Positions 53,749 through 64,000 of a DNA stretch of 64,000 nucleotides are shown here, piece after piece. A program made the position numbers and the translations under genes. The DNA comes from Halobacteriales archaeon QS_4_70_19 (GTDB taxonomy: Archaea > Halobacteriota > Halobacteria > Halobacteriales > Haloarculaceae). The stretch spans positions 62,001 to 126,000 of the forward strand of contig PXRM01000022.1 of NCBI GenBank assembly GCA_003020985.1, in the 5' to 3' direction. Position 1 is the stretch's first letter. Each line of letters starts with the position of its first letter. The notes under the pieces were generated by a model. That model saw nothing but the letters and a program-made list of their open reading frames with translations, did no database searches and was not told the DNA's origin.

Positions 53749-54684
53749 ATGGCACGGACCGCAAAGCGAGCGGAGTCCCTCATCGAGGAGGACCCGGACA
53801 TGCGCGACGCACTCCGGACGGTCCTCGACCGGGCCGAGGACGGCCGGGTGACGTGGGGGGACGTGAGCGACGACCTCACGAGCGGGCAGTGGGGGCGGCT
53901 CATCGAACGGGGCGTCCTCGAGAAGACCGACGGCGAGGGCTGCGAGATCGCGGACCCGGACGAGGTGGCCGCCGTGGTCGGCGGCGCGAGCGCCGCGAGC
54001 ATCGCCGACGGCGGCACCGCGACCGCGACCAGTACCACCCCCTCCTCGTCGACCGACATCGACGACGAGGACTCCTCGTGGTCGATGTACGACAAGATGG
54101 CCGCCGTGGGCGCGCTGGCCCTGTTCGCCGGCTACTCCCTCTCCAACGTCCGGAACGCCATCGCCGGCGTCCTCGACCTCGGACTCGGGCCGCTGGAGCA
54201 GGCGCTCCCGTTCTACGCCGTCATCCTCGTCCTCTCGCTGTTCACCGGCCTCTACTCCACCATCCTGCAGGACAACCTGATGGACACCTCGAAGATGGCC
54301 AAGTACCAGGAGCGCCTCCAGGAGATCCAGGAGCGCGAGAAGGAGGCCCGCGAGCGCGACGACGAGGAGGCGCTCGACCGGATCCAAGAGGAGAAGATGG
54401 AGGCCATGGGCGACAACCTCGGAATGTTCAAAGAACAGTTCCGCCCGATGGTCTGGATCATGCTGCTCACCATCCCGGTGTTCCTCTGGATGTACTGGAT
54501 GATTCTCGTACACCCGGAGGAACTCGGCCAGGTCGTCCTCCCGCTTATCGGGCCGGTCGATTGGACCAGTGGTGTCCTCGGGCCGCTCCAGGCGTGGATC
54601 CTCTGGTACTTCATCTGCTCGATGGGGTTCACCCAGGTCATCCGGAAGACGTTCAACATCCAGACGACGCCGTCGTCGAGCTGA
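53749..54684 (+). CDS. EMC3/DUF106-family membrane insertase with N-terminal winged-helix-like domain
   Basis: 311 residues. Residues about 12-80 form a small domain (DPDMRDALRTVLDRAEDGRV, SGQWGRLIERGVLEKTDG, ADPDEVAAVV) that also heads the STT3-type protein at 60136. A Ser/Thr linker follows, then the DUF106 core of the YidC/Oxa1/EMC3 superfamily: a first helix (FYAVILVLSLFTGLYSTILQ), a charged coiled-coil hairpin (MAKYQERLQEIQEREKEARE, EKMEAMGDNL) and two more helices (MVWIMLLTIPVFLWMYWMI, WILWYFICSMGFTQV). It likely helps insert membrane proteins at the ribosome/Sec exit. Complete. Confidence 0.88.
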   Translation: MARTAKRAESLIEEDPDMRDALRTVLDRAEDGRVTWGDVSDDLTSGQWGRLIERGVLEKTDGEGCEIADPDEVAAVVGGASAASIADGGTATATSTTPSSSTDIDDEDSSWSMYDKMAAVGALALFAGYSLSNVRNAIAGVLDLGLGPLEQALPFYAVILVLSLFTGLYSTILQDNLMDTSKMAKYQERLQEIQEREKEARERDDEEALDRIQEEKMEAMGDNLGMFKEQFRPMVWIMLLTIPVFLWMYWMILVHPEELGQVVLPLIGPVDWTSGVLGPLQAWILWYFICSMGFTQVIRKTFNIQTTPSSS

Positions 54685-54860
54685 CCGGGCCCGTTCGACG
54701 GGTCGCAGTCCGCGGTCTGCGGTCTTCTACTCCGCCGAGAGTACCGTTCCGGCGGATATCACAGTTGTTCGAGGTACCTTTTCACTATACCACACACAGC
54801 TATTATACGCCCAGATAGTCGGGCGATTTCGTCACTGGTGGGGGCTCGGAACTGGCCGAC

Positions 54861-55451
54861 TCAGAACCAGCCGCCACCATCCTGTCGCCGGCGGCGGCGA
54901 CGGCGGACCCGCTCGCGGTCGACCCGCCGAGGGAGCCGTGCGGTGGCGCGCCGGGTGTGGTACTCGGCGCCGCCGAGAACGAGCAGGCTGGCGGCGAACG
55001 CGGCGGTACTCGTCGTCCCGGCGAGGTCGCCGGTGGCGCGGCCGATGACGACGCCGGCCAGCAGGAGGGCGACGCCCGCGCCCGCCGCGAGCGCGAGCGT
55101 GGCGTCCGGCGAGAGGGGGGTGACCGACTCGGCGTGAGTCGCGTGGAACAGTGCCGCCGGCACCACGAGGACCAGCGCGATCAACAGGCCGAGAAACGGC
55201 CGGAACGTCGCCAGCCCGTACGCGAACACGAGGCCACCGGCGAGGGTGGCGGCCGCGAGCGTCGGGTCGGGCACCAGCGTCGCGGCCGGGTCGTCGTCGA
55301 CACGGACCGCGTAGCCGACGAAGACGTAGAGGACGAGGACGCTCACCAGCGTCGTCGAGAGCGGGTCCCCGAACAGGACCCCGTACAGCGCGAACGACAG
55401 CGACAGCACCACCCCCACCAGGACGGCGGCCTCCGGGACGCGGCGGCTCAT
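54861..55451 (-). CDS. Polytopic membrane protein, function unknown
   Basis: 196 residues from MSRRVPEAAVLVGVVLSLSF with about six hydrophobic segments and a very basic C terminus (RRVDRERVRRRRRRRQDGG). No family recognised. It lies convergent with the DUF106 gene across an AT-rich spacer of about 175 bases. Confidence 0.6.
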   Translation of the reverse strand: MSRRVPEAAVLVGVVLSLSFALYGVLFGDPLSTTLVSVLVLYVFVGYAVRVDDDPAATLVPDPTLAAATLAGGLVFAYGLATFRPFLGLLIALVLVVPAALFHATHAESVTPLSPDATLALAAGAGVALLLAGVVIGRATGDLAGTTSTAAFAASLLVLGGAEYHTRRATARLPRRVDRERVRRRRRRRQDGGGWF

Positions 55452-55547
55452 ACCCCCGCTGGGTGGCGAAGCCGCAAACGGGCGTCGGTTCCGGGGCGGG
55501 GAAGTGGAGCGACGGGCGCCAGCTCGCCCGGCCCGGGGCGACGGCTC

Positions 55548-56170
55548 TCAGTCCGTCCGGAGCGCGTACTGGAGCACGCCGAGCGCGGAGCGCCCGTCGC
55601 GCATCCCGCCGCCGAGTGCGGCGGCCCGGAGTTCGTCGAACGCCGCGGTCGTCACGCGGATGGACTCGTTGTCGTCGAGATCCTGCTCGCCCGTGGGCGC
55701 ACAGCCGTGCGCGACGAAGTAGTGGTATGTGGCATCGAGCAGGCCGTTCGAGGGCTCGTGGGCGACGAGGAACTCTACGGCGGCGGCCTCGTAGCCGGTC
55801 TCCTCGGCCAGTTCGCGGCGGGCGGCCTCGGCCAGCGGCTCGTCGGCCTCGACGTTGCCGGCCGGCAGGCCGCGGTGACACGCCCGACCGCCTGCCGCCA
55901 CTCCTCGACGAGGACGACGTCGCCGTCCTCGGTGAACGGGAGGACGATGACGGAGGGGCCGTTCTCGACGCTGTGGAACTCGGTCTCTGTGCCGTCGGGC
56001 AGCCGAACCGCGTCGCGGCGGACGCTGAAGCCGGGGCAGTCGTAGTCGGTCGTCGAGTCGAGCGTCTCCCACGCCAGCGGGTCCGCGGCGTCTTCGGTCG
56101 CGCCACGGGAGTGTTCGTCGCGAGGCTCGTCGGTGGCGGGACCGTCGGCGGGGTCGCCATCGTCGCTCAT
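55548..56170 (-). pseudogene. Nudix hydrolase (ADP-ribose pyrophosphatase-like), frameshifted
   Basis: Start MSDDGDPADGPATDEPRDEH, then FHSVENGPSVIVLPFTEDG and VVLVEEWRQAVGR in one frame. After about 55880 the continuation RGLPAGNVEADEPLAEAARR and ELAEETGYE (Nudix box GxxxxxExxxxxxxREUxEExGU) is in another frame, then VAHEPSNGLLDATYHYF to the stop. The lesion sits inside the loop just before the Nudix box. One or two bases added or lost would explain it, so a sequencing error is quite possible. Substrate probably ADP-ribose or related. Confidence 0.75.
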
Positions 56171-56323
56171 ACCGGCCCCCGGGCGGGCGCGGGCAAAAGC
56201 CCGACGGCGGCGCGACGGGTCACTGCGGGACCGGGGGAGCGGGGCGTCTCCGCACGCTCGCCGGCGACTGGTGGGGCTCGCCCGAGAACAAGAACGAAGT
56301 GACCGGGGCGTCCACGGGCGGCC

Positions 56324-57190
56324 ATGTCCGTCCAGCAGCACCTGGAGCGCCTGTTCACCTGGGAGAGCCTCGAGAACACGGAGCGCGGGGTGGAGTTCGA
56401 ACTGAAGAACCGGCTCATCGAAGGGGAGCTCCACGATGTCGGGGGCTGGATGCTTGACGGCGAGGACGTCGCTCCTGAGAAGATCACGCTGGAGCTGTCG
56501 GACGGGACGCTGCTGGAGGCCGAGGCAGTCTCGCCCGACAACCCCGTCCCGTTCGACCTCGCGGAGACGGTGCAGGTCATCGCCGACGTGCCCCGGCTCC
56601 GCAAGGGGACCCACACCCTCGGGATCGAGATCGACATCGGGGGGTTCGGCATGGTCGGGTTCGAGACGGACGACGACGTCACCGAGGCGGACCTCGTCGA
56701 TATCGACCCGGCCGACTACACGGTCGCGGAGCTAGAGGACCTCGTCACGGACCTGCGGGAACCCGCCGAGCTGGAACGGCTCCTCGAGCGCGAGCGGGGC
56801 GGCAAGGACCGGAAGACCGCCGTCGAGGCCATCGAGGAGCGCCTGGAGACGGCCCGCGAGGAGGCCCCCGACGAGGAGGAGATCGAGTACACCGCCGAGA
56901 ACGCCGCCCCCGGCGGCAGCCTGGTCGAGGAACTGCTGGTCGACATCCTCGAATCACCCCAGCGCGTCACCGTCTACCTCACCGCGCTCCGCCTCCAGCC
57001 CACGACGCCCGGGGCGGTCGCGGGGCAGACGCTGTTCACCGAGGAGACCGTCGAGGACACGCTGGGCGACTTCGAGATGGAGGGCATCGCCGACCGCAAC
57101 GACGACGGCGAGTACGAGGTCGTCTCGCCCGTCACTGTCATCCGGAAGCGACAGAACCGGCTCTGGAACCTGCTGAGTCGCGGGCTGTGA
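56324..57190 (+). CDS. Protein of unknown function, beta domain plus helical tail
   Basis: 288 residues. The N-terminal half (VEFELKNRLIEGELHDVGGW, DGTLLEAEAVSPDNPVPFDL, RKGTHTLGIEIDIGGFG) is a beta-rich domain loosely like the C-deglycosidase beta subunit/DUF6379 kind. The second half is helical and acidic with LEDLVTDLREPAELERLLER, ending in SPVTVIRKRQNRLWNLLSRG. Assignment is weak. Complete as a frame. Confidence 0.55.
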   Translation: MSVQQHLERLFTWESLENTERGVEFELKNRLIEGELHDVGGWMLDGEDVAPEKITLELSDGTLLEAEAVSPDNPVPFDLAETVQVIADVPRLRKGTHTLGIEIDIGGFGMVGFETDDDVTEADLVDIDPADYTVAELEDLVTDLREPAELERLLERERGGKDRKTAVEAIEERLETAREEAPDEEEIEYTAENAAPGGSLVEELLVDILESPQRVTVYLTALRLQPTTPGAVAGQTLFTEETVEDTLGDFEMEGIADRNDDGEYEVVSPVTVIRKRQNRLWNLLSRGL

Positions 57191-57206
57191 GGGCGGTCCG
57201 CAGTTC

Positions 57207-57480
57207 TTACTCGCTTTCCGGCGGCGCCGCCTCGGCCTCCACGAGTTCGAACAGGTTCCCCCACCCCTCGTCCTCCGGGAGCTGGTCCCGGAAGTCATCA
57301 ATGTCGGACCGGGAGACGACCTCGCTCACGAGGTCCATCACCACCTGAGCGTGGGACGCCGCGTCCGACCGGTCGATGCCCTCGGTCTCGGCGACCCGGT
57401 CGAGGTACTCGTTCCAGTCAAACCGCTGGCCGTGCTCCGCGACGGGACCCGTCAGGTACTACTTGATCTCCAGCGGTAAT
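57207..57480 (-). pseudogene. C-terminal half of a DUF2267 protein, with an in-frame TAG
   Basis: The minus strand, ending at TAA 57207-57209, reads HGQRFDWNEYLDRVAETEGI, SHAQVVMDLVSEVVSRSD and DQLPEDEGWGNLFELVEA, the second repeat of DUF2267. Immediately before it comes LPLEIK, a TAG at 57459-57461 where relatives have Trp, then YLTGPVAEHG. The first repeat of the domain is absent: upstream of about 57480 the sequence belongs to the AT-rich island. So the gene is cut by the island and also carries a nonsense codon. Confidence 0.7.
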
Positions 57481-57792
57481 TCGGTGTTTGAGTTGTAGGC
57501 GCTCCGCCGTTCGCTCCCCGATACCTGGTAACGCCACCAATTCGTCTGTGACGTGCAACGCACGGTCTCGAAGTTCCTCTGCTGCTCGTTCGACCGCTTC
57601 TTCGGCCGTTAGCCCGGACGCTAGCGTCTCCGGCTTTCCGTACTTGCAATCGGATTCAGGGTCCTCCCCGTCTGGCAACCACCCCCGAACGACAAACGTC
57701 GCACCTCCTTCCTCAGCCGACTCTCCTACCGTCACGGTCAGTAGATAGACCGTGTCCATCCACCACCGAATCGTGCTGCCCATCGATTCCAC
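57418..57792 (-). CDS. Small protein with C-terminal helix-hairpin-helix
   Basis: GTG start at 57790-57792, or ATG three codons later (MGSTIRWWMDTVYLLTVTVG). The first 60 residues are a beta-rich domain (GGATFVVRGWLPDGEDP); then LTAEEAVERAAEELRD and a canonical HhH DELVALPGIGERTAERLQL. After that the frame runs into DUF2267 DNA, giving an artificial Arg-rich tail, so the original C terminus is lost. Its start overlaps the stop of the next upstream gene by one base (operon). Confidence 0.5.
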   Translation of the reverse strand: MESMGSTIRWWMDTVYLLTVTVGESAEEGGATFVVRGWLPDGEDPESDCKYGKPETLASGLTAEEAVERAAEELRDRALHVTDELVALPGIGERTAERLQLKHRITAGDQVVPDGSRRGARPAV

Positions 57793-58058
57793 TAACTCCC
57801 CCCCGGGATCGACTCTGGAACGTCTACCGTCCGAAAATCGGCTAATGGTTGGTCTTCTGACCCGCTTGTGAACACGGGGATATCCAGTCCCGCTTTCGCC
57901 TGGTCGCGAAGTTTCTCTGCTCGCTCTTTCGGGGTGTGGCCACTCTTGGCAAGGGCTTTGGTAGATGTGTTCGCCACATCCCTAAGCGTCGTGATGCCAC
58001 TCTCGTTCAGATCCGAGCGCTGGGTCTCTGTGAGTGGCAGGTCTTCCAGATTACTCAT
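57792..58058 (-). CDS. Small protein with N-terminal HhH-like motif
   Basis: 88 residues from MSNLEDLPLTETQRSDLNES; a longer frame adds 17 residues. GITTLRDVANTSTKALAKSG fits a helix-hairpin-helix of the type used in RNA polymerase or DNA-binding proteins. The remainder (HTPKERAEKLRDQAKAG) is helical. Paired in an operon with the other HhH protein. Role unknown; nucleic-acid binding inferred. Confidence 0.55.
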   Translation of the reverse strand: MSNLEDLPLTETQRSDLNESGITTLRDVANTSTKALAKSGHTPKERAEKLRDQAKAGLDIPVFTSGSEDQPLADFRTVDVPESIPGGS

Positions 58059-58240
58059 CGCCACTGCCTTCTCCAGAGGTGATTGTATATTTTTCTGCTT
58101 CCTCTCCATACTTAAGCGCGTTCGATAACTATATCGGGAGAAGAAAGGGATTTAATCTGCAATAATCCGACAATTCACCACAACTCAAAACTTATCTCCC
58201 AGATGATGCCAAACTACCTATCTTTTTTGAAGGCGAGAAT

Positions 58241-58268
58241 CCCGCCGTTCACGGCGGGGAGGATGTCA
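58241..58268 (+). mobile_element. Orphan IS200/IS605-type right end
   Basis: Hairpin CCCGCCGT/ACGGCGGG followed by GAGGATGTCA, the same terminal signature as in the 38.38 kb scar (GGGAGGATGTCA). No tnpA or tnpB remains, so this is a solo end. A second hairpin GCCATCAGG/CCTGATGGC lies just downstream at 58295-58323. Confidence 0.65.
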
Positions 58269-58403
58269 CCCGGCCTCTGCGGTTAATGGAGATTGCCATC
58301 AGGGAGACACCCTGCCTGATGGCTACGAAGAAACGCTCACAACTTGCACCATCGAAACTGTTGAGTACTCCTACGATCACGTACAGAACGACGGAAACCA
58401 CTA

Positions 58404-58898
58404 ATGACCAAGAAAACCAGACGGTCCGTGCTTGCGGCTGGCGTCTCCACCATCTGGTTAGCAGGTTGCGCAGAATATTCTACGAGTAAAGGCGCCTCAG
58501 AAGAGTCCCCGACCTCACAAACACGTTCCCCTACGGAGACGCCTTCAAATGGTGGGAGAGTGGACACCACTACCTCTGATGCCGAGCCTGATCTGGTGGT
58601 TTACAACGAATCCGAGAAGGAGCAACCGACTGAACTTCTCGTTCGAAATCCGGATGGCGAGGAAACGTTTGAGAAACAGCTGAGCTTAAATCCGGAGGGC
58701 ACCGATGGGGATCGATGGTTCCGTTCAAACACGTTCTCAAGGGACTCTGGTGTACTATCGGAGAACCAGAAGGATGAGTGGACCATCGAGGCATCGACGG
58801 AAGCTGCACGCGATGCCTTCGAGTTCATCTACAATGACGGAAAGCGAGCGCACGTCCATATCTATGCCGAAACCATTGAATTCGGAGTGATTGAGTGA
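58404..58898 (+). CDS. Secreted lipoprotein, island family member
   Basis: 164 residues. Signal KKTRRSVLAAGVSTIWLAGC with RR and lipobox, a Ser/Thr-rich linker, then a domain starting PDLVVYNESEKEQPTELLV, with DGEETFEKQLSLNPEG and a C terminus HVHIYAETIEFGVIE. The DGEETF block and the VxIxxxxIEF ending match the lipoprotein at 2236, 56 kb away. This points to a mobile or repeatedly acquired family. Located in the third AT-rich island. Confidence 0.75.
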   Translation: MTKKTRRSVLAAGVSTIWLAGCAEYSTSKGASEESPTSQTRSPTETPSNGGRVDTTTSDAEPDLVVYNESEKEQPTELLVRNPDGEETFEKQLSLNPEGTDGDRWFRSNTFSRDSGVLSENQKDEWTIEASTEAARDAFEFIYNDGKRAHVHIYAETIEFGVIE

Positions 58899-58947
58899 AG
58901 TCTCTCTGCCAAGTCTAAGAGGGCTCTGTGCAGGACTAGTTGGAGTA

Positions 58948-59337
58948 TTACGACTCTGTCAGCGGAGTAATCTCGGGCAGAATGAGGCCCTCTTCTGATG
59001 TTTGTGGCGGACGATCCGTTTCCCAGAGGAGCACGTCGATATAGTCCGTGATCTCGTCAGTATCTTGGAGCTGTGGGGCGTCCTTCAGATAGCCTCCTGT
59101 GCCCTCCTCGTAGGTGAACCGGGCGGTCTAAGTCCGATACTCGGAAGACTGCTGAATCTGGGTTTGCTCAATGGTGCCAACAATGGTTGTCTGTCTTCTG
59201 TCACTCGGGAGGTCGGTCCCTGCGACTTCGGTGGTGAGCCACGGACTCGTCAGTAGCAGGGTGAGAAACGTGGGAAGAAGTGGGCCGGCACGAATTTGAA
59301 TCGTGGTTACGGCCACCCGAAGGCCGAAGGATACCAA
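58948..59337 (-). pseudogene. Decaying ORF with an in-frame TAG
   Basis: One minus frame from about 59337 to TAA 58948-58950, broken once by TAG at 59128-59130. Before the stop: LPTFLTLLLTSPWLTTEVAG (membrane-like), RRQTTIVGTIEQTQIQQSSE. After it: TARFTYEEGTGGYLKDAPQL, ITDYIDVLLWETDRPPQTSE, LILPEITPLTES. Both sides look like one protein, perhaps membrane-anchored. There is no ATG (TTG at the 5' end), so the front is probably lost. Family not recognised. Confidence 0.45.
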
Positions 59338-59342
59338 GCTAC
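59318..59342 (-). repeat. Dispersed short repeat, weak copy D
   Basis: Complement reads GGTAGCTTGGTATCCTTCGG. It shares GTAGCTxGGTATCCTxCG with copies A-C and lies at the right edge of the third AT-rich island. The match is short and could be chance. Confidence 0.35.
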
Positions 59343-59443
59343 CCCACCGGCCCGCAGTGGGAGGAAGACGCCTGCTCGGTAAAACCGTTGCGGACCGGGG
59401 CGCCGCGGGGGGGAGCGTGCCCTCCTTGCTCGGCGCCGTCGGG

Positions 59444-60031
59444 TCAGTACGTCCGGTAGCCGTCCGTGTCGAGCCAGTTGTGGGCCACCGTCACGGTCTG
59501 GTCGGCGTGGAGCCGCTCGGGGCCCACGGAGACGCGGGCGTCGGCGCGCTCGGCGAGCAGGTCGCCCTCCGCGTCGGTGAAGTCCCGGTGGTCCGACAGC
59601 ACGAACGTCGGGTCGTCGGGGACGGACTGCTCGGCCAGGGGCGTGCCGTCCTCGTGGAGCTGGACGAGCGGGCCGTCGAGCCGGTCGAGGGTGGCCGCGA
59701 GGTCGAACCGGCCGACGTGGACACCGGGGGAGGGCTCGGCCTCCTGGTGGCCGATGGCGGACTCGCGGGCGTCGAGCGCGTCCCGAATGCGGGCGGCGGT
59801 CGAGCGCTCGTCCGGGCGGAGGTTGCGGACGGCTCCGCCGTCGACCCGGACCGTCAGTTCGTCGCGGACGACGAGGTGGGCGGCCGCGTCCTCGCGGACG
59901 CCGTGGGAGGTGAGCAGCGCGCCGGTGACGAACCGGCTTAGGAGGTCGAGCCGGCCGGTACCGGGCAGGTCGTCCAGCGACACCGCCGCGTCGAGCGGCA
60001 GCTCGTGGGCGAGGCAGACGAAGTCGCGCAT
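59444..60031 (-). CDS. trmY: tRNA pseudouridine-54 N1-methyltransferase
   Basis: SPOUT-class methyltransferase making m1-pseudouridine at tRNA position 54. 195 residues from MRDFVCLAHELPLDAAVSLD. Knot region and SAM site: TPLAEQSVPDDPTFVLSDHR and ERLHADQTVTVAHNWLD. The family's N-terminal LPLDAAVSLDDLPGTGRLDLL and FVTGALLTSHGVR are normal. Complete; it lies 104 bases from the divergent STT3-type gene. Confidence 0.9.
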   Translation of the reverse strand: MRDFVCLAHELPLDAAVSLDDLPGTGRLDLLSRFVTGALLTSHGVREDAAAHLVVRDELTVRVDGGAVRNLRPDERSTAARIRDALDARESAIGHQEAEPSPGVHVGRFDLAATLDRLDGPLVQLHEDGTPLAEQSVPDDPTFVLSDHRDFTDAEGDLLAERADARVSVGPERLHADQTVTVAHNWLDTDGYRTY

Positions 60032-60135
60032 ACGGGGGAGAGACGGGGGGTCCACAAAACCGATTCGGCGCGCCCGTCTGGCGGTTCAGCGACGGTAGCG
60101 GTGGCTTTATTCGAGGCCGAGGCCGAACGCCGTCC

Positions 60136-62598
60136 ATGACCGACGCGCGCGAGGTCCGGGCCCTGCTCGACGACCGCCCGGACCTCGAACCCGCGCTCGA
60201 GTCCCTCCTGGAGACGGACGCGGCTCACGAGACCTGGACCTTCGACCGGATCGGCCTCGACTCGGGGACGTTCGGGGAACTCGTCTCCGCGGGCGTCGTC
60301 GAGAAGGCGGACGGCGCGTACCGGCTGGCCGACCCCGGCGCCGTCGAGCGGGCGCTGTCGGGGACGGTCGCGGCGGAGTCGAGCGCCGGACCCTCGCTGT
60401 CGGCCGTCGACATCGATCTCGACGTCGACCGGCGGGTCGCCGCGGCGCTGGCCGGGGCGCTGGTGCTGGTGTTGTGCTTTCGCGTGTTCACGTTCGACAC
60501 CATCTTCCGCGACGGACAGGTCGTCCTCTCGGGGAACGACCCGTACTTCTACCTCTACTGGACGGAGGAGCTGAGCCGGCAGTCGGGCGGGGTGCTCGGT
60601 CTGAGCGCACTGACCGCCGGGTCGTTCGGTCTGCTGAAGGGCGAGCCGCTGCTCGTCGCCGTCCTCTGGGCGGCGACGGGGCTGGCCGGCGGCGTCGAGC
60701 AGGCACCGCTCGTCCTCGCGTGGTATCCGGTCGCCGCGGGCGTCGTCACCGGCGCGTTCACCTACCTCGTCGCGACCGGGCTGACCGACGACGAGCGGGT
60801 CGGCATCGCGGCGGTGGTCATGCTCGCGGTGATGCCGGCGCTGGCGTTCCGCTCCGGGCTGGGGTACGCCGACCACCACGCCTTCGACTACCTCTGGCTG
60901 TCGCTGACGGCAGCCGGCGCGGTCCGGCTGGTGCGGACGCCCGCGAGCCGAGCAGCCGTGACGAGCCCGCGGACGCTCGCCTGGGCGGGCGTGACGGGCG
61001 CCGCCATCGCGGCCCAGCTCCTCTCGTGGGACGCCGGACCGCTGTTGCTGTTCCCGCTCGCGCTGTTCGTCCCGCTGTCCGCGCTGGTCGCCCTCGACGG
61101 GGACGAGTCGCCGGCACTGACCCTGGCGCCGCTGGCGAGTGGGCTGGCCGTCGCGGCGGTCCTCGCGGCGATTCCACATCTCACTCTCGGCTGGCAGACG
61201 CCGGTCGTGGCGTTCACGCCGGTCCTGCTGCTCGTCGGGACGGGGGTCGTGGCAGTCGCCGGCGAGGCGGTTGACCGCGCACCGTCGCTGCCGCTGTCGC
61301 GGCTCCGGGCCATGGCCGCCATCGAGGTGCTGGGCGGCCTCGTCGCACTGGGGGTGCTCACGGTGGGTCTGCCGACGTACGGGGACCGGCTGTTCGAGCG
61401 GCTCGGGCAGGTCGGCACCCGGGGCGGCATCGTCGAGGGGAACTCGCTGTTCGCCGCGGACACGTTCGGCTGGCTGTTCCTGTTCGGCCTGCTGCTCTTC
61501 CTCGGCCTCCCGTACATGGGGTGGGCGCTCCTCCGGGCGACCCGGGGCGAGGACCGGCACGGCTGGTTGCTCGGCGGCGGCTACGCGTGGTTCTTCCTCG
61601 GGCTCGCGGCCCTGCAGATGCGGTTCGCCGGCGAGTTCTCCACGTTCCTCGCCGTCTTCACCGGGCTCGGGTTCGTCCACATCGCCGAGCGCGTCGACCT
61701 GGCGCGGGCCCCCGTCCCGTTCCGGGCGGCGACGCCGGCCAGGGACGACGGCGAGGCACAGGAGCCGGCCTTCACGCGCCCGTCGCTACGCACCGCCGGC
61801 TCGCTCCTCTTCCTCTTCCTGCTGCTGAGCGGGCTGAGCATCGCCCAGGCACCGGTCAAGGCACGCCAGGTCCCCATCGCGGAGCACAAGTACGAGACCG
61901 CGGTGTGGGTCGACGGCTACGCCGCGGAACAGGGGCTCGAGTACCCCGAGAACTACGTCTTCAGCCAGTGGGGCCGCAACCGGATGTACAACTACGTCGT
62001 CAGTGGCCAGTCGCGGTCGTACGGGTTCGCCCAGTCGAACTACGGGGCGTTCCTCAAGTCGACCGAACCGGACGTCTGGTACGAGCGGTTGCGCGGGCGG
62101 GTCGGGTTCGTCGTGCTGAACAGCGCGCCCTCCGGGAACGCGACACTCCACGCCCGGCTCACGAACGGGTTCGGCGGTCGGTACGCCGGGTACGCGGGAT
62201 CGGGCCACTACCGGGCCGTCCGGGTGACCGACCGGCAGCAGGTCCACCGGGTCGTCCCCGGCGGCAACCTCACCGGGACGGTCCAGAACGGGACGGCAGC
62301 GGCCGGGAACGCGACGGTCAGGCTCCACACCGAGGTCACCGTCTCCGGCCGCGACGACCCCGTCACGTACGTCCGGCACGCTCTGACCGACGGCGACGGC
62401 GACTACCACGTCCGGGTCGCGTACCCCGGCGAGTACGAACTCCGCCACCCCGACGGGACCGCGGCCACGGTGACGGTGCCGGAGTCGGCGGTCGTCGAGG
62501 GGACCGCCGTCGACGCCGGGACGCTCCGGGGTGAGAACGCGACGAGTGCCGCGCAGCAGCGGCTCCGGACGGTGTCGGCTCCGCGCGCTGCCGCGTGA
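60136..62598 (+). CDS. STT3-type oligosaccharyltransferase-like protein with N-terminal winged-helix-like domain
   Basis: 820 residues. Residues about 9-78 form a small domain (RPDLEPALESLLETDAAHET, SGTFGELVSAGVVEKADG, ADPGAVERAL) shared with the EMC3-like protein at 53749. About 13 membrane helices follow, with STT3 signatures: acidic GNDPYFYLYWTEELSRQSG in the first loop and GLGYADHHAFDYLWLSL. The C-terminal soluble part contains FSQWGRNRMYNYVVSGQSRS in place of the usual WWDYG, so it is a divergent member, and ends in a beta-rich carboxypeptidase-regulatory-like domain (ALTDGDGDYHVRVAYPGEYE). A role in N-glycan transfer to surface proteins is inferred. Tail to tail with aglM. Confidence 0.8.
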   Translation: MTDAREVRALLDDRPDLEPALESLLETDAAHETWTFDRIGLDSGTFGELVSAGVVEKADGAYRLADPGAVERALSGTVAAESSAGPSLSAVDIDLDVDRRVAAALAGALVLVLCFRVFTFDTIFRDGQVVLSGNDPYFYLYWTEELSRQSGGVLGLSALTAGSFGLLKGEPLLVAVLWAATGLAGGVEQAPLVLAWYPVAAGVVTGAFTYLVATGLTDDERVGIAAVVMLAVMPALAFRSGLGYADHHAFDYLWLSLTAAGAVRLVRTPASRAAVTSPRTLAWAGVTGAAIAAQLLSWDAGPLLLFPLALFVPLSALVALDGDESPALTLAPLASGLAVAAVLAAIPHLTLGWQTPVVAFTPVLLLVGTGVVAVAGEAVDRAPSLPLSRLRAMAAIEVLGGLVALGVLTVGLPTYGDRLFERLGQVGTRGGIVEGNSLFAADTFGWLFLFGLLLFLGLPYMGWALLRATRGEDRHGWLLGGGYAWFFLGLAALQMRFAGEFSTFLAVFTGLGFVHIAERVDLARAPVPFRAATPARDDGEAQEPAFTRPSLRTAGSLLFLFLLLSGLSIAQAPVKARQVPIAEHKYETAVWVDGYAAEQGLEYPENYVFSQWGRNRMYNYVVSGQSRSYGFAQSNYGAFLKSTEPDVWYERLRGRVGFVVLNSAPSGNATLHARLTNGFGGRYAGYAGSGHYRAVRVTDRQQVHRVVPGGNLTGTVQNGTAAAGNATVRLHTEVTVSGRDDPVTYVRHALTDGDGDYHVRVAYPGEYELRHPDGTAATVTVPESAVVEGTAVDAGTLRGENATSAAQQRLRTVSAPRAAA

Positions 62599-62628: not shown

Positions 62629-63930
62629 CTACCAGGTCAGTCCCTCGTAGGTGAGTCCCTCGCGCCGCGAGATGATGCGGCGCCCGTCCACGACCACTGG
62701 CTCGGCCATCGCGTCGAACTCGTCGTCCAGCGCGGCGAACTCGTCCCAGTCCGTCACGACCAGCGCGCCGTGGGCCCCCTCCAGCGCCGCACTCGCGCCG
62801 TCGACGTACTCGACATCGGGGTACTCGGCGACCATCGCGTCGCTCGCCAGCGGGTCGTACGCGACCACGTCGGCGCCACGCGCCTCGAGCCCCTCGATGA
62901 CGGGCTTCGCGCGGGACCCGCGGATGTCGTCCGTGCCGGACTTGAACGCCAGCCCCAGCACGGCGACGCGCTTCCCGTCCACGTCGACGTGGTCGTCGAG
63001 CAGCCCCAGCAACCGCTGTGGCTGCTTCTCGTTGACGCCGACGACGGACTCTAGCAGGTCCGGCTCGTAGCCGACCTGCCGGGCGGCGGCGATGATGGCG
63101 GCCGTGTCCTTCGGGAAACAGGACCCGCCCCACCCGACCCCGCTCCGGAGGAACTTCGCGCCGATGCGGTCGTCCATGCCGACGGCGTCGGCCACCGCGT
63201 ACGAGTCCACGCCGTACTCCTTGCAGACGTTGCCGAGTTCGTTGATGAGCGATATCTTCGACGCCAGGAAGACGTTGTTGGCGTACTTCACCATCGCGGC
63301 CTCGCGGCGGCCGGTCTCGACGACCGGCGTCTCCCACTCGGCGACGAGCGGCTCGTACAGCCGGGCGAACAGGTCCAGCGCGCGCTCGTCGCCGTCGGTC
63401 CCGAGGACGATCTTGTCCGGGCTCATGAAGTCGTCCACCGCCGAGCCCTGGGACTGGAACTCGGGGTTGACCGCGACGCCGAACTCCTCGCCCTCCCGCT
63501 TCCCGGAGGCCGCCTCCAGCACCGGAATCAGCTCCTCCTCGGTCATCCCGGGGGTGACCGTCGACTTGACGACGACCAGCGTGTAGTCGTCGGCGTCCGC
63601 GAGCGCCGCGCCCACGTCCTCGGCGGCGGCCCGCAGCGGTCCCACGTCGATGCTGCCGTCCTCGCGGGCGGGCGTCTGGATGGTGAGGAACACCACGTCC
63701 GAGTCGGGGACGCTGTCGTACGCCGTGCTCGCCCGGAGCGAGTTCCCGGCGTACGCCGTCAGCAGCGGGCTCAGCCCGGGTTCGTGGATGGGGGACTCCC
63801 CGGCGTTCAGCTGCTCGACGATGGCCTCGTCGATGTCGATGGCGGTCACGTCGTGCCCCAGGTCCGCGAGACAGGCCGCCAGCGTCGTCCCCACGTAGCC
63901 GCTCCCCACGACCGAGACGTCCAGACTCAT
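62629..63930 (-). CDS. aglM: UDP-glucose 6-dehydrogenase (AglM type)
   Basis: Makes UDP-glucuronic acid, a precursor of haloarchaeal N-glycans. 433 residues from [20 protein letters not shown]; six more codons are possible upstream. Rossmann motif [39 protein letters not shown]-type block [20 protein letters not shown], catalytic cysteine in [15 protein letters not shown], and C-terminal [17 protein letters not shown]-mannose/GlcNAc-type relatives look alike, so the exact sugar is inferred, helped by the STT3-type neighbour. Complete. Confidence 0.88.
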
Positions 63931-64000
63931 TGCCGTCCCGTGGGTCACGGCCGGATTTAGGGGTTCGGGTCGCAGGTAAGGGTGAAGAGCTCCTTGTTCT

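Follow-up and report, generated by a model that had tools for sequence, protein, structure and literature searches.

A homologous, predicted winged-helix domain heads an EMC3-type insertase and a second STT3-type paralog in haloarchaea

The eukaryotic endoplasmic reticulum couples membrane insertion physically to glycosylation, and a locus of Halobacteriales archaeon QS_4_70_19 gives a sequence handle on whether this is also the case in archaea. The stretch of DNA analysed, here called the window, is 64,000 nucleotides long (GenBank assembly GCA_003020985.1, contig PXRM01000022.1, positions 62,001 to 126,000) and encodes on its forward strand both an EMC3/TMCO1-like membrane insertase (DUF106, archaeal YidC; 311 amino acids, 53749..54684) and an STT3-type protein of 820 amino acids (60136..62598), which we name AglB2. 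A first-pass annotation had claimed that the same small N-terminal domain heads the two proteins, and had suggested that a shared docking site on the ribosome, the signal recognition particle (SRP) receptor or Sec would link insertion with glycosylation. Are the two domains really the same, and do they tie the two machines together?

The N-terminal domain of the insertase (EMC3-N, residues 1-79, 53749..53985) and that of AglB2 (AglB2-N, residues 1-76, 60136..60363) share 33% identity across 75 residues, with a BLASTP E-value of 2.6e-10 and a phmmer score of 33 bits. Their local alignment score of 106 compares with a mean of 28 +/- 5.4 for 5000 composition-preserving shuffles (z 14.5), the best of which reached 63. 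When separate profiles of the two families were compared (24 EMC3-N and 28 STT3-N sequences), they aligned over 77 columns with a probability of 98.9 and an E-value of 2.9e-17, and in either family the short motif pieces listed in the first-pass annotation hold up across about 100 sequences. Sequence searches of Pfam, NCBIfam and the Protein Data Bank (PDB) found no family over either N-terminal domain, and a search of the open-access literature turned up no account of the shared domain, subscription papers being outside this search. EMC3-N and AglB2-N are one homologous domain family, new to the databases searched, and the first-pass annotation was right about its presence and position on both proteins.

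In the haloarchaeal genomes and annotated plasmids sampled, the family is restricted to these two kinds of protein. A profile of the window pair gave significant matches in its own 2.84 Mb genome to these two proteins only, the next match having an E-value of 0.1. Across 57 genomes of the window's family all significant matches, once remnants had been checked, were EMC3 proteins, EMC3 paralogs or STT3-type proteins, and in a 79-genome sample of the order the only carriers were EMC3 (found in 77 genomes) and AglB2, with the domain present in 79/79. A 295-genome sample of the phylum contained the domain in 53 genomes, all within the window's order, and in no genome outside it; the class sample held no other order, and the outer limit of the domain is the order as sampled. 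Above-chance matches on annotated plasmids were labelled DUF106, EMC3/TMCO1 or STT3 domain-containing, the exceptions being two AglB2 genes with a LamG label and a handful of loci that were unannotated or called hypothetical. Phage records searched with the domain gave no match.

Several candidates for further carriers were rejected. An apparent third class, made of proteins of 300-340 amino acids, turned out to be EMC3 paralogs, a match on a viral contig (L299) was a chance match to a tape-measure-like phage protein, and weak matches to other proteins (E-values of 0.005-0.1 and above) were partial and inconsistent and were set aside. Two more loci were AglB2 remnants: in one (L047:2405-2797, forward strand) a deletion has left the AglB2 N-terminal domain fused in frame to a UDP-sugar dehydrogenase fragment, and the other (L048:2535-4170, forward strand) is an AglB2 with a frameshift, whose genome also encodes an intact one.

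The naming of the two proteins by the first-pass annotation stands at the family level. The insertase matches PF01956 (E 1.3e-45; 155.6 bits against a curated cut-off of 27.1) and 60KD_IMP/YidC (E 3.7e-6), and AglB2 matches PF02516 (E 9e-9; 35.8 bits against 24.5) and PF18079 (E 3.4e-5). The STT3 carrier, however, is a second, divergent paralog and not the housekeeping oligosaccharyltransferase: it scores 123 bits on TIGR04154, the model of canonical haloarchaeal AglB, for which the cut-off is 450, and the canonical AglB of the same genome is encoded on another contig (G000:C25:80774-83560) and scores 792 bits. Canonical, archaeosortase-associated AglB (above 450 bits) was present in 74 of the 79 genomes of the order sample and never carried the domain (0/74), its N-terminus being a short stretch ahead of the first membrane helix. 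AglB2 proteins score about 60-150 bits on the same model, and the sample held at least 36 intact ones, at least 35 of these with the domain; about 36 of the 79 genomes have an AglB2. Among named genomes (Haloarcula, Halorussus, Halorientalis, Halobaculum, Natrialba, Haloquadratum and others) the domain was present at 80/80 AglB2 loci, these being the best 80, a selection that may favour full-length copies; the closest relatives of the window AglB2 among them are from Haloglomus (68-69%).

These 80 sequences were aligned to 25 canonical AglBs. The catalytic or metal-binding residues of the membrane domain, N134, D135, H247, E434 and R496, are conserved in 100% of the AglB2 sequences. D135 (60538..60540), which does not vary in either AglB2 or canonical AglB, is the catalytic aspartate of the first external loop (SGNDPY) and aligns with GNDPW of A. 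fulgidus AglB (5gmy/3waj), and E434 (61435..61437), the equivalent of the TIAE glutamate, is likewise found in 100% of both. The site of the WWDYG sequon-binding motif reads QWGRNR in the window protein (61966..61983), and the motif is absent from 80/80 AglB2 sequences, the second W being kept and the D lost (75% G). STT3 structures show the WWDYG motif recognising the Ser/Thr of the sequon; because AglB2 is without it, its acceptor recognition should differ from that of canonical AglB. AglB2 represents a second class of STT3 that is widespread, with the catalytic residues intact and the sequon motif absent, and it is a candidate for an as yet unassigned glycan-transfer activity. A long C-terminal extension was seen in the AglB2 of two loci (L089 and L082) and in two Haladaptatus plasmid copies (NZ_CP085338 and NZ_CP085329) that are publicly annotated as LamG-like only.

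AlphaFold2 (AF2) models gave both domains the same order of elements, H1-H2-short helix-H3-beta hairpin-H, which is a winged-helix topology, although the two models are not independent, the alignment for EMC3-N (2 EMC3 and 31 AglB2 rows) containing AglB2 sequences. Mean pLDDT was 81 for AglB2-N (48 AglB2 rows; about 90 in the core and about 85-91 over residues 1-70) and 80 for EMC3-N (core about 90). Foldseek searches of the PDB returned winged-helix proteins prominently but weakly, with E-values of 0.1-1 (best 0.19 and 0.11 for the two models). Both domains are predicted to be winged helices, in keeping with the adaptor fold that had been proposed. The linker that follows the domain was of low confidence in the models, as expected of a flexible tether.

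On which side of the membrane do the domains lie? The STT3 N-terminus is cytoplasmic, and the first-pass annotation had placed both domains there. For the insertase, this depends on TM0 (54091..54141), an extra hydrophobic segment ahead of the Oxa1-type core of transmembrane helices and cytosolic coiled coil (54184..54663, PF01956 match to residues 145-304). Because in the Oxa1 superfamily the helix preceding the first core helix lies outside (PMC8675477), TM0 would have to cross the membrane for EMC3-N to be cytoplasmic. TM0 is moderately hydrophobic in haloarchaea and clearly so in EMC3 from another class of the phylum; we infer that it puts EMC3-N in the cytoplasm, which is also the reading consistent with its homology to AglB2-N. 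The window insertase is the only copy in its genome. Elsewhere we observed close pairs of EMC3 paralogs in which both copies have the winged helix (L044:2939-4787 and L041), and further diverged EMC3 copies on haloarchaeal plasmids, Haloferax included.

A tree of 84 domains placed 51 EMC3 and 33 AglB2 rows on opposite sides of one branch, which was found in every bootstrap tree (100/100); the two sister clades therefore reflect one split, with no later exchange in the sampled genomes. EMC3-N, with TSGHWGRLIETG preserved, is present in four small genomes of one family (f34), whose loci that were read have 40% guanine plus cytosine (GC). These four genomes yielded no AglB2, and the single canonical AglB read in this family is without the domain. 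Judging by its GC content, genome size and net charge, f34 is probably a non-halophilic sister lineage. Because it has EMC3-N but no AglB2 was found there, and because EMC3 of another class has TM0 but not the domain, the domain was probably on EMC3 before it was on AglB2. EMC3-N is conserved equally in genomes without AglB2, those of f34 included.

No element of the domain is more conserved than helix 3, yet the two families differ there. It reads S-G-Q-W-G-R-L-I-E in EMC3 and D-S-G-x-F-G-E-L-V-S in AglB2, one position being R in 99% of EMC3 and E in 93% of AglB2, and another E in 92% versus S in 80%. The helix pattern suggests that these residues are exposed on the surface, and the near-invariant ones point to a binding surface. 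Because the conserved residues differ between the families, with the charge swapped (W-G-R-L-I-E versus F-G-E-L-V-S), one identical docking site for both domains is unlikely. The average net charge of the domain is -12 in haloarchaea and -5 in the f34 example. Since the domain is acidic even in this low-GC lineage, protein binding fits better than RNA binding, and the domain most likely binds protein rather than nucleic acid; the same acidity argues against binding to ribosomal RNA.

AglB2 is placed in clusters of glycan genes. An NDP-sugar epimerase was found at 39/80 named loci, and the bacterial-type sugar phosphotransferase PF02397 likewise at 39/80, mostly directly downstream; other conserved neighbours are nucleotidyltransferases, UDP-sugar dehydrogenases, glycosyltransferases, sulfatases and flippases. 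In the window, a UDP-sugar dehydrogenase gene (62629-63948) adjoins AglB2 and is convergent with it. EMC3 was within 10 kb of AglB2 at 1/80 named loci, in a Haloglomus near to the window, and we rejected operon linkage of the two as a general feature since the genes are close only in the window's genus. Two other window genes were noted: a SAM-dependent RNA methyltransferase (PF04013, TrmY-like; 59444-60055, reverse strand), divergent from AglB2, and, between the EMC3 and AglB2 genes, a reading frame (56324-57190, forward strand) with a match to HMG-CoA_red_N and a weak match to the haloarchaeal winged helix HVO_A0261_N.

We consider it fairly probable that EMC3-N and AglB2-N form one haloarchaeal family of cytoplasmic winged-helix protein-binding adaptors, placed first on EMC3 and later copied to AglB2. 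The domain would originally have belonged to the EMC3-type insertase, where it is essentially universal, and a copy would then have come to head AglB2, an STT3-type glycosyltransferase that may serve dedicated glycan gene clusters. In either protein the domain would sit in the cytoplasm, attached by a flexible linker ahead of the first membrane helix. At the insertion site EMC3-N may recruit or orient a partner that is cytosolic or belongs to the translocon, and the diverged AglB2-N may tether its enzyme near the EMC3 assembly or to a related partner. From the divergence of helix 3 we conclude that the partners would be different or complementary, and not one identical docking site; a different but related partner is possible. 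The common winged helix is a hint that the insertase and AglB2 may be physically linked.

Some observations weigh against this adaptor reading. The domain is not strictly required, as one AglB2 (L314) begins almost at the membrane part and is without it, and a small number of secondary, divergent EMC3 paralogs have no domain match. Beyond the window's genus, the EMC3 and AglB2 genes do not lie next to each other. The fold class depends mainly on AF2 topology, because the Foldseek matches are weak, and the two models share AglB2 rows. Finally, the partner need not be shared, given that conservation of helix 3 differs between the families.

Perhaps the winged helix was simply reused, stabilising each protein or binding something different in each, with the two machines unconnected. 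Winged helices are common in archaea, the surfaces of the two domains have diverged, and AglB2 is present in under half of the genomes, one copy having lost the domain. Random reuse, however, would hardly be expected to put a single, specific homologous family, as opposed to just the fold, on no more than these two proteins in entire genomes; we regard reuse without a link as quite possible, if somewhat doubtful. The docking of both domains on the same cytoplasmic partner, as the first-pass annotation had it, would couple insertion with glycosylation. The two homologous domains are indeed placed alike, each on a membrane protein that faces the cytosol and acts on exported proteins, and in many genomes the EMC3 gene is in the adk-cmk-truB neighbourhood, which in archaea is described close to secY and ribosomal genes (PMC5898192). 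But the general form of this claim is not supported: canonical AglB lacks the domain, which is found only on the accessory AglB2, and AglB2 is placed in glycan clusters and not beside sec genes; EMC3-N is just as conserved where there is no AglB2, the charge of the helix-3 signature is swapped, the acidity described above speaks against binding to ribosomal RNA, and the two genes are close together only in the window's genus. We regard a common partner as unlikely.

Direct contact between the two domains is another option, and a rather improbable one. The domain would have been a homotypic EMC3-EMC3 module at its origin, with AglB2-N now pairing with EMC3-N so that Arg50 of EMC3 faces Glu48 of AglB2. 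Paralogous domains often convert homodimers to heterodimers, and the charges at this helix-3 position are opposite and near-absolute; yet genomes that lack AglB2 conserve Arg50 to the same degree, and the exposure of both residues is suggested by the helix pattern and not by coordinates. A more speculative proposal, which we hold to be quite improbable, is that the matched pair tethers an oligosaccharyltransferase without WWDYG to the insertase, giving a translocon-coupled second glycan at sites that are not necessarily Asn-X-Ser/Thr. If true, this would be an archaeal analogue, built from different parts, of eukaryotic STT3A-translocon coupling. Lastly, that the resemblance is an artefact of low-complexity acidic haloarchaeal composition is next to inconceivable: both domains are acidic, but the shuffles and the profile-profile E-value rule out chance, composition and low complexity, W, G, S and aromatic positions are conserved, and the domain is still recognisable in the 40% GC lineage.

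The adaptor reading can be set beside several known systems. The order helix-helix-short helix-recognition helix-beta hairpin is that of the winged helices of MarR, ArsR and CRP/FNR regulators and of cullin WHB, which are among the weak PDB matches; the haloarchaeal domain differs from these in being acidic and on membrane proteins, with no sequence match and Foldseek E-values above 0.1. The body of the window insertase is a clear member of EMC3/TMCO1 (PF01956, arCOG02673). EMC3s of another class of the phylum, with reading frames of about 210-290 amino acids, begin with TM0, whereas haloarchaeal ones add a winged helix of about 80 residues and a linker. With AglB/STT3 (PF02516, TIGR04154) AglB2 shares the GT-C membrane core, the invariant D135, H247, E434 and R496 and the C-terminal AglB_L1 domain, and it differs in its score of 123 bits against the 450 cut-off, the lack of WWDYG, the N-terminal winged helix and the canonical AglB alongside it in the genome. 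Haloferax (Hfx.) volcanii is reported to have AglB-independent N-glycosylation without an identified enzyme, and Halobacterium (Hbt.) salinarum a DolPP-linked glycan for which the enzyme is unsettled (PMC3871713, PMC8241124, PMC6591318). AglB is reported as the only Stt3 homolog of Hfx. volcanii (PMC3871713), and for this reason we rejected AglB2 as the missing oligosaccharyltransferase of the Agl15 pathway of that species. In species that have it, AglB2 is a candidate for AglB-independent glycosylation (PMC3871713, PMC6591318, PMC8241124). AglB2 has in common with the oligosaccharyltransferases still sought in these two species that it is AglB-like and yet separate from AglB, and in many genomes it stands beside a phosphoglycosyl transferase.

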